DNA from: Sphingobacteriaceae bacterium
GTDB taxonomy: Bacteria > Bacteroidota > Bacteroidia > Sphingobacteriales > Sphingobacteriaceae
DNA: 64,000 nucleotides
Direction: 5' to 3'
Assembly (NCBI GenBank): GCA_024645045.1
Contig: JAHEGO010000002.1
Location: 1-64,000, forward strand
This document shows positions 983 through 6,335 of the stretch, piece after piece (within the stretch, counting starts at the first letter, position 1; the number at the start of each line of letters is the position of its first letter). Made by a program: the position numbers and the translations under genes. The notes beneath the pieces are model-generated. The model saw only the letters and a program-made list of their open reading frames with translations. It made no database searches and was not told where the DNA came from.

Positions 983-1375
983 ATGAAGAAGAAAGATAAC
1001 CTCAAACAAAAAATTACAATGGAGTTCGGCATGCGCTCATCTCCTAAAATACTTTTTAGTTATTTAAGCTCACCAAATGGCCTAGCAGAGTGGTTTGCAG
1101 ACAATGTGATATTTAAAGATGGCTATTATTTGTTTATTTGGGACAACGAATCTATGCGTGCAAAAATGGTTGCGAATAGAGAAAATAAATTAGTGAGATT
1201 TAAGTGGGACGACGGTGATCCCAATTCTTTTTTAGAATTTGAGATTATTCAGGATGAATTAACTGGTGATGTTGCGCTTTGTGTCATTGATTTTGCTTTT
1301 GAATCAGAAATTGCAGACAAAAAAATGATTTGGCAAAACCAAATTCAAGATCTTACCCATGCTTTAGGTGCTTAA
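983..1375 (+). CDS. START-like (SRPBCC fold) domain protein
   Basis: A 130-residue cytoplasmic protein of the START/AHSA1-like fold known across Bacteroidota. Recognisable pieces are an N-terminal strand (KITMEFGMRSSPKILFSYLSS), the LAEWFADNV motif typical of AHSA1-like proteins around residues 34-42, and a C-terminal helix ending in the WQNQIQDLTHALG region. The fold usually binds a hydrophobic ligand, but no ligand is known for this subgroup. Its stop lies four bases before the ATG of the LptF/G-family permease, so the two are probably co-transcribed. The ATG at 983 begins with a typical basic MKKKDN stretch. Confidence 0.8.
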   Translation: MKKKDNLKQKITMEFGMRSSPKILFSYLSSPNGLAEWFADNVIFKDGYYLFIWDNESMRAKMVANRENKLVRFKWDDGDPNSFLEFEIIQDELTGDVALCVIDFAFESEIADKKMIWQNQIQDLTHALGA

Positions 1376-1379
1376 TAAA

Positions 1380-2819
1380 ATGATATTGCCAATAAAAAAA
1401 GTTCACAAGCTAATTATTGGTTCTTTTATAGGCCCTTTTGTAATGACATTCTTTATTGCATTATTCATTTTGTTAATGCAATTCTTATTTAAATACATCG
1501 ACGATTTAGTTGGAAAAGGTTTAGAGTGGTACGTGGTATTAGAATTAATCATGTATGCTTCTTCTACATTAGTACCAATGGCATTGCCTTTAGCCATACT
1601 ACTTTCATCTATCATGACCTTTGGTAACTTAGGGGAACACTACGAATTAGTTGCATTAAAATCTTCTGGTATTTCTTTGAGAAAAATAATGATGCCACTT
1701 GTTTATTGTGTTTTCTTGATAAGCATTGGTGCTTTTTATTTTTCTAATGTTGCCATGCCATATGCGAACCTCAAAATGGGTGCATTGATGTGGGATGTAA
1801 AAAACCAGAAACCTACATTGGCGCTTAAAGAAGGAATATTTTTTAATGGAATGGACGGGTATAGTATCAGAGTTGGAAAGAAAGAGAAAGATGGCCAAAC
1901 CCTTAAAAACATTGTTATTTACAACCATTCAAGCCAAAGTGGTAATATGAATGTAATGATGGCTGACAGTGGTCGAATGTTGAAGTCTGAAAACGAACGC
2001 TTTTTGATAATTGAATTATTTAATGGGATAAGCTATGAGGAATCCGGCACACCCAATACCAGCAATGATCGTAAGCAATTGTTACGAGTTAAATTCAAAC
2101 AACATGAAGTAAAGTTTGATTTGTCAACTTTTCAAATGAACCGTACGGATGAAAATTTATTTAAAGATCATTACACGATGTTAAATATTAAGCAGCTCAA
2201 GTATTATGAAGATTCACTTCAAAAGAAAGGGAAATCCGAAATAGCATATTACAATCAAAATTACAGAGCATATACTTTTATGGATAAAAAATTTGAAGTG
2301 GACTCGGCAGCAGCTCCCACTATCAAATTGATTAATTCAGATATTATTCAAAACTTCCCAAAAGCTACGCAGGCAGGCATTTTAGCCAGTGCATATGCTA
2401 CCATTAGAAACATAAAAAGTTATTCTGAAAGTACTGCAGAAGACCACGATAAACTGGCAGAAAAAATTCGCCGTCATGAGATTGAATACCATCGAAAGTT
2501 TACTTTATCGATTGCATGTTTGATCTTGTTTTTTATCGGTGCTCCTTTAGGAGCAATTATTAGAAAAGGAGGGCTAGGAATGCCGGTCGTGATTTCAATT
2601 TTCTTTTTTATCTTTTTTCATATTCTTTCTATAACTGGTGAAAAATTTGCCAGAAAAGGGGTGGTAGATGTTTGGTTTGGGATGTGGATGGCCTCAATTG
2701 TGCTGCTCCCTATTGCCATTTTATTGACAAGAATGGCTACTACCGATTCCGCAATTTTCAACATGGAAGCATATAGTAATTTCTTTAAGAAAATCTTCAA
2801 GCGGACTGTTTCAAAATAG
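1380..2819 (+). CDS. LptF/LptG (YjgP/YjgQ) family lipopolysaccharide export permease
   Basis: An inner-membrane permease expected to work with LptB to extract LPS from the inner membrane and pass it to the periplasmic bridge. About three transmembrane segments lie in the first 130 residues, including the conserved STLVPMALPLAILLSSIMTFG stretch. A large periplasmic beta-jellyroll-like region follows, then three C-terminal segments (about residues 370-450), which is the LptF/LptG layout. Bacteroidota often carry scattered single copies, so F or G cannot be assigned. I chose ATG 1380; a GTG at 1368 would add four residues and overlap the preceding stop. Confidence 0.88.
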   Translation: MILPIKKVHKLIIGSFIGPFVMTFFIALFILLMQFLFKYIDDLVGKGLEWYVVLELIMYASSTLVPMALPLAILLSSIMTFGNLGEHYELVALKSSGISLRKIMMPLVYCVFLISIGAFYFSNVAMPYANLKMGALMWDVKNQKPTLALKEGIFFNGMDGYSIRVGKKEKDGQTLKNIVIYNHSSQSGNMNVMMADSGRMLKSENERFLIIELFNGISYEESGTPNTSNDRKQLLRVKFKQHEVKFDLSTFQMNRTDENLFKDHYTMLNIKQLKYYEDSLQKKGKSEIAYYNQNYRAYTFMDKKFEVDSAAAPTIKLINSDIIQNFPKATQAGILASAYATIRNIKSYSESTAEDHDKLAEKIRRHEIEYHRKFTLSIACLILFFIGAPLGAIIRKGGLGMPVVISIFFFIFFHILSITGEKFARKGVVDVWFGMWMASIVLLPIAILLTRMATTDSAIFNMEAYSNFFKKIFKRTVSK

Positions 2820-2884: not shown

Positions 2885-3970
2885 ATGGAAAGTATTGCCG
2901 GATTAGATATAAAAACAGATTGTCTTTTTTTTAAGGGAGATTTGCCTTGCGCACCTCATAAAAAAACAGGTGAACATTGTGCTTCTTGTGCTGCTTATCA
3001 AAAAATAAGCAAGCGAATTTTAATCATCAAATTAGGTGCAATTGGAGATGTTATTCGAACAACTCCTTTAATTCGAAGAATAAGAAAAGAATTTCCAAAT
3101 GCAAAAATTTCTTGGCTTACACATACCCCTGCAATTTTACCTGCTCAGGCAATAGACGAAATTTTAAAATACGATTTTACTTCTGTGCTCTATTTACAGC
3201 AAGTAAAATTTGACATCGTATATAATTTAGACAAAGATAAAGATGCTTGCGCACTTGTAAATACGATAAATGCTCCACATCGCTTTGGTTATTGTTTAAA
3301 AGATGGTGTTCCATTTCCAATGAATCAACTTGCTGAGCACAAATTCAGCACTGGTTTATTTGACGATGTAAGCAAGGCCAATCAAAAGTCATATGTGCAA
3401 GAGATTTTCGAATTAGCTGGTTGGAATTTTGAAGGGGAAGAATATTTATTTGACAACCATCAAGACAAAGGCTTCGTGTGGAATTTACCTGCGGAAAAAA
3501 AATTGATTGGATTAAATACCGGTTGTGGTGATCGTTGGACGACAAGACTCTGGCCTGAAACACATTGGGTTAAGCTGATACAGCTATTGCAGCAAGAAGG
3601 GTTTGAACCTGTGCTGTTAGGTGGAGAGCAAGAGCATGAAAAAAACTCAAAGCTTGCAAATTTAACAGGTGCTCACTATTCAGGTTTTCATTCCTTGCCT
3701 AAGTTTATCAATTTGATGTATCAAATGGATTTAATTGTTACACAAGTAACCATGGCAATGCACATTGCAGTTGCACTTCAAAAACAAATGGTTTTAATGA
3801 ATAATATATTCAATCCATTTGAATTTGAATTATACCAACGCGGACAAATCATTAGCCCTTCAAAACCTTGTGAATGTTATTTCCAGGGCACTTGTAAAAA
3901 TGGTCAATCCTGTATGACAGAATTATCCCCAGAATCGGTGCTGCATGCGATCATAGCGAACGTCAAATAA
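2885..3970 (+). CDS. Glycosyltransferase family 9 (heptosyltransferase-like) with cysteine motifs at both ends
   Basis: A GT9 (ADP-heptose:LPS heptosyltransferase-like) enzyme. The LGAIGDVIRTTPLIRRIR motif (about residues 50-67) is the family N-terminal signature. GLNTGCGDRWTTRLWP (about 210-225) and LIVTQVTMAMHIAVALQ (about 280-297) correspond to the sugar-nucleotide binding half. Unusually, an N-terminal segment has four cysteines (C13, C22, C32, C35, with H25 and H31), and the C-terminus has four more in CECYFQGTCKNGQSC. It is the first of three glycosyltransferase genes in a row (GT4 starts two bases after its stop) and probably acts in LPS or another surface glycan. The acceptor is unknown. 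Confidence 0.85.
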   Translation: MESIAGLDIKTDCLFFKGDLPCAPHKKTGEHCASCAAYQKISKRILIIKLGAIGDVIRTTPLIRRIRKEFPNAKISWLTHTPAILPAQAIDEILKYDFTSVLYLQQVKFDIVYNLDKDKDACALVNTINAPHRFGYCLKDGVPFPMNQLAEHKFSTGLFDDVSKANQKSYVQEIFELAGWNFEGEEYLFDNHQDKGFVWNLPAEKKLIGLNTGCGDRWTTRLWPETHWVKLIQLLQQEGFEPVLLGGEQEHEKNSKLANLTGAHYSGFHSLPKFINLMYQMDLIVTQVTMAMHIAVALQKQMVLMNNIFNPFEFELYQRGQIISPSKPCECYFQGTCKNGQSCMTELSPESVLHAIIANVK

Positions 3971-3971
3971 A

Positions 3972-5162
3972 TTGAAAGTTTTACAATTAACATATCGTGT
4001 GCCATTTCCACCAACAGATGGTGGTGCAATGGGTATTTATGCCATAACTAAAGGTTTAAAAGCAAATGGTGTAGATGTAGATTTGTTAGCAATCAACACT
4101 CCAAAACACGCACAACCTGCTGGCGCAATGGCTGATCTTGCCAATCAAATAGACGTATTTGTTGATACTAAAATTTCTCCAATAAAATTACTGATTAATG
4201 TTTTGTTTAAAAGCATGCCTTATAATATTGAAAGGTTTTATGACGATAAAGTATCTGCACAATTAGCATCTCTTTTAACTGCTAATCAATATGATTATAT
4301 TCATGTTGATGGTGCATTTGTAGCGGCTTATATCGCTACTATTCGCAAGCACAGCAATTGTCCGATTATTGTTCGAGCACATAATATAGAATATATTATT
4401 TGGGATAGATTGGCATTAAATGAAAGAAATCCTTTGAAAAAATGGTTTTACAATCATTTAGCTAAGCGCCTGAAAGCATTTGAAACAGCGTATTACAACA
4501 AGGCTGATGGAATTGCCGCAATTACAATTGAAGATAAAAACCGCCTATTACAAATGGGTTTAACTAAACCAATTGAAGTTATTCCGGCTGGTGTGATCCT
4601 AGATAAATATTTAGAAACCAATTATTATATAGAAAAACCCAATACCATTTTTAGTATCAGTGCATTAGATTGGGCACCAAACATAGAAGGTTTAAAGTGG
4701 TTCTTTGATAATGTTTGGGAGAAATTACACCAAAGAAACCCATTAGTTGAATTTCATATTGCAGGAAAATCAACGCCAGATTGGCTTTTAAACTTGCACA
4801 TGAAAAACGTTAAGGTACACGGATTTGTTTCAGATGCCATTGAATTTAAAAAGTCGCATCAAATTATGTTGGTGCCATTGCTTTCTGGAGGGGGAATGCG
4901 GGTGAAAATAATTGAGGGGATGGCTGCTAAAAAATGCATCATTAGTTCAAGCGTTGGTGCAGAAGGAATTCCATCTACCCATCAAAAAAATATTATTATT
5001 GCAAATACACCTGATGAATGGATTGTAGCAATTGAACAAGCAATAAACAATGAGCAGTTGCGTGAAAGTATAGGTCAGGCTGCGTTTGAGTTTGTTGGTA
5101 ATCATTTCGAGAACAAAGCAATTACTAAAAAATACATTGATTTTTATTTGGCTATAAAATAA
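3972..5162 (+). CDS. Glycosyltransferase family 4
   Basis: A cytoplasmic GT-B fold enzyme that transfers a sugar from a nucleotide-sugar donor to a growing glycan. The N-terminus MKVLQLTYRVPFPPTDGGA is typical of GT4 enzymes. The C-terminal donor site LLSGGGMRVKIIEGMAAKK (about residues 305-324) followed by VGAEGIPS is the family E-x7-E-type region. The start is a TTG at 3972, one base after the upstream stop; it fits the conserved N-terminus exactly, and no ATG fits. It sits between GT9 and GT2 genes with one- or zero-base gaps, so the three are one transcription unit. Confidence 0.87.
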   Translation: MKVLQLTYRVPFPPTDGGAMGIYAITKGLKANGVDVDLLAINTPKHAQPAGAMADLANQIDVFVDTKISPIKLLINVLFKSMPYNIERFYDDKVSAQLASLLTANQYDYIHVDGAFVAAYIATIRKHSNCPIIVRAHNIEYIIWDRLALNERNPLKKWFYNHLAKRLKAFETAYYNKADGIAAITIEDKNRLLQMGLTKPIEVIPAGVILDKYLETNYYIEKPNTIFSISALDWAPNIEGLKWFFDNVWEKLHQRNPLVEFHIAGKSTPDWLLNLHMKNVKVHGFVSDAIEFKKSHQIMLVPLLSGGGMRVKIIEGMAAKKCIISSSVGAEGIPSTHQKNIIIANTPDEWIVAIEQAINNEQLRESIGQAAFEFVGNHFENKAITKKYIDFYLAIK

Positions 5163-6335
5163 ATGGGAACCATCACATTTTTGTTTTATTTATGCATTGC
5201 TTTGTTATTTCATAGTTATGTGTTATTTCCTTTTATTTTATCTGTCGTTTCTATTAATAAAAAACAAAATCAAAATACTTATAAGTTGGGCGCTGATGAA
5301 CTTCCAACGGTTGCAATTCTAATCGCTGCGTATAACGAAGAAAGCGTAATTGAAGAAAAAATTAAGTCTATTTTTAATACGGAATATCCTGTCGATAAAA
5401 TTCAAGTTTACATAGGTGCAGATGCATGTACTGACCAAACAATTCAAATCATAGCGCGTTATACTGCAACACATGCAGTTCATTTGGTTGAATTTACGCA
5501 TAGAACAGGTAAAACAGATATCATCAATCAATTGGCTCGAATGGCAAGAGCAGAAGTTTTAATTTTAACAGATGCGAATGTGTTTTTTTTAAAACAAACA
5601 ATTTTTGAAATGGTCAAGCATTACCAAAATAATTCCATTGCATTGGTTGCAGGAAATATTGTCAATCCGGTGGTCAAAAGCGATGGTATTTCTTTTCAAG
5701 AAAAATCTTATTTGTCTAGAGAGAATAAGATTAAATACCAAGAGGGGATTTGTTGGGGAAGTATGATTGGCGCATTTGGAGGTTGTTACTCTTTAAGAGC
5801 TGAAAATTTTAAAGAAGTGCCAAAGCATTTCATTGTAGATGATTTTTATATATCGATGTCTGTTTTGCAACAAGGTAAATTGGCAATTACGGAATTAGCG
5901 GCTGTTTGCACAGAAGATGTTTCAAATAAAGAAATGGAAGAGTTTAGGAGAAAAGTAAGAATTGCAACTGGTAATTTTCAAAACTTATTTCATTTTGCAG
6001 CTTTACTTATCAACCCATTTAGCAGCGTTGGTTTCAGTTTTTGGTCGCATAAAGTTATCCGTTGGATAGGGCCATTTTTGTTATCATTCGCATTTATTAC
6101 ATGTGCATTTTTAAGTATTAAAAGTCAATTTTATACTAATTTATTGTTGTTTCAACTGTTATTGATGGCAACACCAATTTTCGATTGGCTACTTAAAAAC
6201 ATTGGCATACATTTTAAATTGCTTAGATTTGCATCACATTTTTATTTAATGAATTTGGCTTTGCTGAAGGGTTTTTATTTGTTTTCAAAAGGAATAGAAA
6301 CAAGTGTTTGGGAGCCAACCAAAAGAAATCAATAA
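5163..6335 (+). CDS. Glycosyltransferase family 2, membrane-anchored
   Basis: A processive-type GT2 enzyme. There is one N-terminal transmembrane helix (residues 1-28), then a GT-A catalytic domain with [21 protein letters not shown] (about 87-93), LTDANVFF (metal-binding DxD equivalent), [11 protein letters not shown] and [11 protein letters not shown] (catalytic base). [13 protein letters not shown] segment takes the place of the QxxRW motif. About three C-terminal helices follow (residues 290-375). The layout resembles cellulose or chitin synthase-like GT2 enzymes of about 390 aa, so it may extend a polysaccharide at the membrane. The ATG follows the upstream stop with no gap. Substrate unknown. 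Confidence 0.87.

Follow-up and report, generated by a model that had tools for sequence, protein, structure and literature searches.

A gene close to the left end of the window (by which we mean the whole 64,000-nucleotide stretch of DNA analyzed here) encodes a GT9 glycosyltransferase with four cysteines near each terminus. This raises the question of whether the two groups form one metal site or two, and of what such sites would do in an enzyme of this family. A preliminary description made from the sequence had proposed a single metal or iron–sulfur site shared by both groups, of a kind that classic heptosyltransferases do not have.

The GT9 gene and its neighborhood

The assignment to GT9 was borne out: the open reading frame matches PF01075 (E 3.3e-14), scoring 53.3 bits where 22 are required, the predicted model has a GT-B fold, and the catalytic residues are kept, with both D55 and H293 (the proposed catalytic Asp and the His of the second-domain motif) present in 131/131 orthologues. 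The NCBIfam equivalog cut-offs for LPS heptosyltransferases I and II (WaaC and WaaF) were far missed, with scores of 67.9 bits against 185.3 and 59.1 against 134.6. The eight cysteines are those originally described, C13, C22, C32, and C35 in front and C329, C331, C337, and C343 at the rear, where the C-terminal stretch of the protein reads CECYFQGTCKNGQSC.

Table 1 Coordinates of the GT9 gene, its features, and its neighbors in the window
Feature	Positions	Strand	Basis
LptF/LptG-type LPS export permease, directly upstream of the GT9 gene	1368..2819	+	PF03739, E 4.2e-78
GT9 glycosyltransferase, 361 aa, ATG start, N4 (front-finger) subclass 1	2885..3970	+	ORF, Pfam, orthologues
N-terminal module, residues 1–42, motif D-C-x(8)-C-x(2)-[HN]-K-x(5)-C-x(2)-C	2885..3010	+	Alignments, predicted fold
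Codons of C13 (2921–2923), C22 (2948–2950), C32 (2978–2980), and C35 (2987–2989)	2921..2989	+	Sequence, conservation
D55, equivalent to the Asp proposed as catalytic in WaaC/TibC	3047..3049	+	Profile alignment; 131/131
Donor loop CGDRWTTR, C214 (3524–3526) to R221 (3545–3547; Lys in the compared subclasses)	3524..3547	+	Alignments
V288, where the motif D-[TS]-x-x-[ML]-H usually has its Asp	3746..3748	+	Alignments
Putative C-terminal finger: C329 (3869–3871), C331 (3875–3877), C337 (3893–3895), C343 (3911–3913)	3869..3913	+	Sequence, conservation
GT4 glycosyltransferase, one base after the GT9 stop	3972..5162	+	PF13692, E 1.2e-19
GT2 glycosyltransferase, next in the probable operon	5163..6335	+	PF00535, E 3.5e-16

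The gene is flanked by an export permease and two further glycosyltransferases (Table 1), and ribBA lies downstream of the GT2 gene. The order permease–GT9–GT4 recurs in 6 of 80 fetched loci. For a wider view of the neighborhood, we compared the window with 11 of these 80 loci and 20 distant loci chosen for the purpose, two of the 32 containing no GT9 frame. A glycosyltransferase from one of four recurring clusters (one or two members of each were checked) was found within two ORFs of the GT9 gene in 22 of the remaining 30 loci, the window included, and in 17 of 18 distant ones, while 8/30 had none at that distance. Glycosyltransferase neighbors, together with the LptF/G permease of the window, fit a role in envelope glycan assembly. 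In three distant loci (L154, L162, and L172), members of two recurring protein clusters were also found near the GT9 gene, and one member of each of these clusters (in L162 and L172) carries a type IX secretion sorting domain (PF18962).

Distribution of the N-terminal motif

Relatives of the protein were detected in 214 of the 395 genomes of the phylum that were searched. A single strong orthologue (E 3e-105 or better) was found in each of 54 genomes representing 21 family codes, and 4 of these genomes, the window's own included, fall in the window's class by the tool's grouping; the eight nearest relatives in a genome scan, at 65–84% identity, all come from Bacteroidota assemblies. The preliminary description had named poor conservation in orthologues as an outcome that would count against it, and we found the opposite: each of the front cysteines is present in 131/131 orthologues (130 distinct sequences), as are C329, C331, and C337, with C343 in 129/131. 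Since 71 of the 131 come from loci L082–L152, mostly Hymenobacter, the independent evidence is smaller than this count. Nonetheless, in a 29-sequence alignment of varied families, D12, C13, P21, C22, P24, K26, C32, and C35 are invariant, and so are all four rear cysteines. The third and fourth front cysteines are variably spaced, with insertions in some orthologues and C-x-C in two from Adhaeribacter. The histidines that had been noted within the motif fared less well: at position 25, the 131 orthologues divide into 53 with His and 78 with Asn, so this residue is no fixed ligand.

Weaker matches beginning at query residues 7–12 fall into two sister subclasses, each with a variant of the motif, which in most members reads DC..F.GDRPC..[NH]K..G..C..C for class 2 (17 proteins) and C-x2-F-x-GYKPC-x5-C-x3 or 4-C for class 3 (25 proteins). 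We set the boundary between classes 1 and 2 at 42% identity to the window protein, and restored by hand to the counts three class-1 proteins and one class-3 protein that the pattern had missed. Together with the 131 orthologues, this yields 173 carriers (172 distinct), all of which contain the four front cysteines. An N-terminal profile run against 148 genomes gave 35 places at E < 1e-3, of which 34 overlap GT9 matches and the last is a 62-aa frame in genome G038 (E 8.4e-4). Seven phage records also contain relatives, and these are without the front motif since their matches begin at query residues 36–44; two relatives were found on viral contigs. No Pfam family matched the N-terminal 43 residues of the window protein or of a class-2 example at E up to 10, and a class-3 example gave one sub-threshold match (Thyroglobulin_1, E 0.021). 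Run against PDB sequences, the N-terminal profile had seven matches, the best at E 0.25, and Foldseek found none at E 10 with a 50-residue N-terminal model, which is so small that this proves little. We recognized no description of the motif in the open-access literature searched (at the level of listings, in one library). The N-terminal cysteine motif, a putative and apparently undescribed finger, is real and well conserved and marks a branch of GT9.

We evaluated the extent of this branch with trees based exclusively on core columns (query residues 43–324, outside both motifs). In a quick-method tree of 118 rows, the 74 carriers occupy one side of a branch with an SH-aLRT of 100; here an identity filter reduced the rows of classes 1 and 4, and L064 (cut at the locus end), L228, and class-3 L220, L221, and L240 were left out, with L082 likewise listed for removal. 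In a careful-method tree of 69 rows, for which groups were limited to 14, 12, 10, and 30 and eleven long-branched or redundant rows were removed (among them WaaC, WaaQ, and WaaU), the 38 carriers were again separated by one branch (100/99) with one state change. These carriers include a Streptomyces protein, whose placement is less sure because its row is long (2.5). A single gain of the front motif would be the simple reading of these trees, which are unrooted and from which gain versus loss is not read.

Some class-3 proteins have features of their own. In at least four genomes (G055:C33, G039:C39, G093:C14, and G031:C56), the class-3 GT9 gene is next to or near another GT9 gene, and the proposed catalytic Asp is replaced by Ala, Thr, or Asn in 8 of the 25 proteins; judging from these sequences, class-3 proteins are perhaps inactive partners of a GT9 pair. 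Separately, at L044:92-2113 (minus strand), a class-3 GT9 and a homocysteine S-methyltransferase domain (PF02574, E 2.4e-56) share a single 674-aa frame.

One metal site or two

The rear cysteines have a much broader distribution than the front ones. All four are present in 170/173 carriers, the exceptions being two orthologues that lost the fourth (L176 and L186) and one protein cut at the locus end. They are also present in 45/45 GT9 proteins without the front motif. These comprise 18 proteins matched only from about query residue 42 onward and 27 ordinary GT9 proteins from the best-scoring 30 loci when 99 genomes were searched with PF01075, with no protein in both sets; the other three loci were not counted, the protein picked there being a neighboring class-3 one. 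No comparable four-cysteine pattern was found before the last 100 residues in the 27 ordinary proteins. A Fusobacterium GT9, judged by eye, has the C-terminus CRPCAIHGGNSCPEKHFRCM. The C-terminal group is absent from the four classic Escherichia coli enzymes WaaC, WaaF, WaaQ, and WaaU, consistent with the earlier remark that classic heptosyltransferases do not have it. Since 18/18 and 27/27 non-carriers have the group, it is, as far as these sequences indicate, a common GT9 trait in the phylum that was lost or is absent in the textbook enzymes, rather than a peculiarity of this protein.

Structure prediction points in the same direction. The AlphaFold2 model of the whole protein has a pLDDT of 94.7 and a pTM of 0.90, with ten-residue blocks of 88–96 for the first four and 75–91 across the C-terminal finger. 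Its nearest solved folds are the GT9 protein 3tov (Z 27.9, rmsd 3.0, 307 residues aligned), WaaF (1psw, Z 25.8), WaaC (2h1h, Z 25.3), and TibC (4rb4, Z 19.4), and solved GT9 structures cover residues 41–361, leaving the N-terminal module outside the match. Predicted alone, residues 1–50 reach a pLDDT of 80.7, and their DSSP string agrees with that of the full-length model as far as residue 40: residues 13 and 40 are in strands or bridges, and helices span 23–28 and 32–34. This suggests, but does not prove, that the module is self-contained, with its own cysteines closing it. The plant photosynthetic NDH subunit PnsB1 (PDB 9grx, 7wff, and 7f9o) also matched the GT9 fold, with Z about 20, and was matched by the GT9 C-terminal profile as well (E 1.6e-4).

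These observations bear directly on whether the two cysteine groups could meet to form one shared site such as an Fe–S cluster. The front and rear groups are conserved together in carriers, and in GT-B enzymes the C-terminal helix may return toward the N-terminal domain, both of which would favor such a site. However, all 45 non-carriers have the rear group while lacking the front cysteines, L176 and L186 keep all four front cysteines despite the loss of a rear one, the N-terminal fragment is predicted to fold by itself, and four ligands in each group already make a complete site. A shared site, as the preliminary description had it, is therefore very unlikely.

For the rear group, a precedent exists in TibC, in which Cys 339, 342, 358, and 370 bind ferric iron, and in which mutation of any of the four gives a colorless protein, breaks the dodecamer, and abolishes activity, according to the available text of its report (PMC4358343). 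TibC was found from the window model by both Foldseek and VIA. At the profile level, the C-terminal halves of GT9 proteins without the front motif match TibC residues 215–386, a range that includes its four cysteines, with E 1.1e-7; TibC was not listed at E 1 by a 68-sequence full-length profile or at E 10 by a shorter C-terminal one. By analogy, the C-terminal group of GT9 proteins may be a metal finger that serves structure or contacts.

An alternative for the front motif is regulation of the enzyme by an Fe–S or mononuclear iron site sensitive to oxygen or redox state, and four conserved cysteines without a conserved histidine can indeed hold iron. Yet Hymenobacter are aerobic bacteria, and the motif is kept in many of them, where an exposed Fe–S cluster would be a burden. 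The ferric iron of TibC lends this alternative some weight, but the TibC authors report no sign of an electron-transfer role in the available text (PMC4358343). Overall, we regard iron-based regulation as unlikely.

We instead favor, with moderate confidence, two separate structural fingers on a cytosolic GT9 enzyme of envelope glycan synthesis. Under this model, the enzyme, with a GT-B fold, would extend a cell-envelope glycan (the LPS core or a similar one) by a sugar, most likely from a donor of the ADP-heptose type. The four N-terminal cysteines would fold residues 1–42 around one metal, probably zinc and possibly iron, as a small finger sitting on the N-terminal domain. A second metal, distinct from the first, would be bound by the four rear cysteines between the final strand and the final helix, an arrangement like that of TibC and one expected in other GT9 proteins with this cysteine group. 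Both fingers would be structural, acting in folding, oligomer contacts, or acceptor binding, and would not be redox sites.

The donor pocket and comparison with known enzymes

The donor pocket of subclass 1 departs from that of its relatives. In a profile alignment, from which the positions were counted, R221 corresponds to WaaC K192, V288 to D261, D55 to D13, and H293 to H266. We take K192 and D261 of WaaC to be donor-site residues, and D13 to be the catalytic Asp of its first loop. R221 and V288 are present in 131/131 subclass-1 proteins, compared to Lys and Asp in 60/60 proteins of classes 2, 3, and 4, and subclass 1 thus has a fixed and different donor pocket. The donor loop also contains a ninth cysteine, C214, within GLNTGCGxRW, which is found in 128/131 orthologues and 25/25 class-3 proteins, versus 0/17 in class 2.

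This replacement speaks, at the level of sequence, against an ordinary ADP-heptose donor. Subclass 1 might accordingly have left ADP-heptose for another donor, with heptose transfer served by a second GT9 enzyme. The window's genome (1.83 Mb in 70 contigs) has two GT9 matches, and the second (contig C21, L001) is without the front motif. On the other side, the proposed catalytic Asp and His are retained, and HldC (TIGR02199) was found in 54/54 genomes with subclass 1 (E 4.1e-54 or better), versus 219 of 395 genomes over the cut-off overall (Fisher test, p 5.9e-16, with all 54 counted as over the cut-off from their E-values and kinship ignored). Heptose genes and subclass-1 GT9 may, however, co-occur only through shared ancestry. 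The window's own genome encodes GmhA and HldC, both scoring above their cut-offs, and an HldA-like protein that falls slightly short of its own (334 of 345). We thus consider a change of donor possible but doubtful, and retain an ADP-heptose type as the most likely donor.

A further-reaching interpretation, which we offer tentatively, is that the N-terminal finger is an undescribed metal module gained once in an ancient GT9 clade that spans at least two phyla, and that, with the pocket of subclass 1 rebuilt (Lys to Arg, Asp to Val, and C214), it would go along with a different donor or a new acceptor bound by the finger. If the model of two separate fingers is right, a single metal finger would be common among GT9 enzymes of the phylum and two would be present in a large branch of them, in contrast to the iron-finger motif that the TibC authors call unique in the available text of their report (PMC4358343). 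The fixed changes in the donor pocket also mean that the widespread subclass 1 needs an assay before being labeled as heptosyltransferases.

Compared with known systems, the window protein shares its core with the solved GT9 members from Veillonella parvula (3tov) and E. coli (WaaF 1psw and WaaC 2h1h), which have the same GT-B fold from residue 41–43 to the C-terminus and the same catalytic Asp and His. Unlike the window protein, these lack a comparable N-terminal extension as well as the group of four cysteines at the C-terminus, and the window protein further differs from them in R221 and V288. TibC and other bacterial autotransporter heptosyltransferases are similar to it in the four-cysteine group of the C-terminal lobe, with both a profile and a fold match. 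The two differ at the other end: 43 residues precede the first core strand in the window protein, while TibC, which modifies autotransporters, has a 97-residue N-terminal beta-barrel, and an N-terminal cysteine finger goes unmentioned in the available text of its report (PMC4358343).

A parallel outside the phylum is the Streptomyces protein included in the careful-method tree, a GT9 encoded on plasmid pFRL5 (WP_024127269.1), which bears out the earlier remark that a similar N-terminal motif occurs in GT9 proteins of other phyla, here the Actinomycetota. Like the window protein, it has both cysteine motifs (DCRHFAGGMPC...C..C in front and CSPC...C.....C at the rear) and stands on the same side of the tree; unlike it, it has a shorter loop between the second and third cysteines, retains the donor-pocket Lys and Asp, and is encoded in what is presumably a natural-product cluster that includes heptose genes. 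A 653-aa fusion in this cluster (L260:13470-15431) combines GmhA (sedoheptulose-7-phosphate isomerase), HldA (heptose kinase), and HldC (adenylyltransferase) parts. The cluster also encodes a heptose-epimerase-like protein, a GmhB-like phosphatase, radical SAM, P450, and carbamoyltransferase proteins, and an SHMT resembling fluorothreonine transaldolase, and its product is perhaps a heptose-containing natural product. The presence of these heptose genes suggests ADP-heptose, made next door, as the donor of at least one front-finger GT9, and makes the Streptomyces relative a testable entry point to this group of enzymes.
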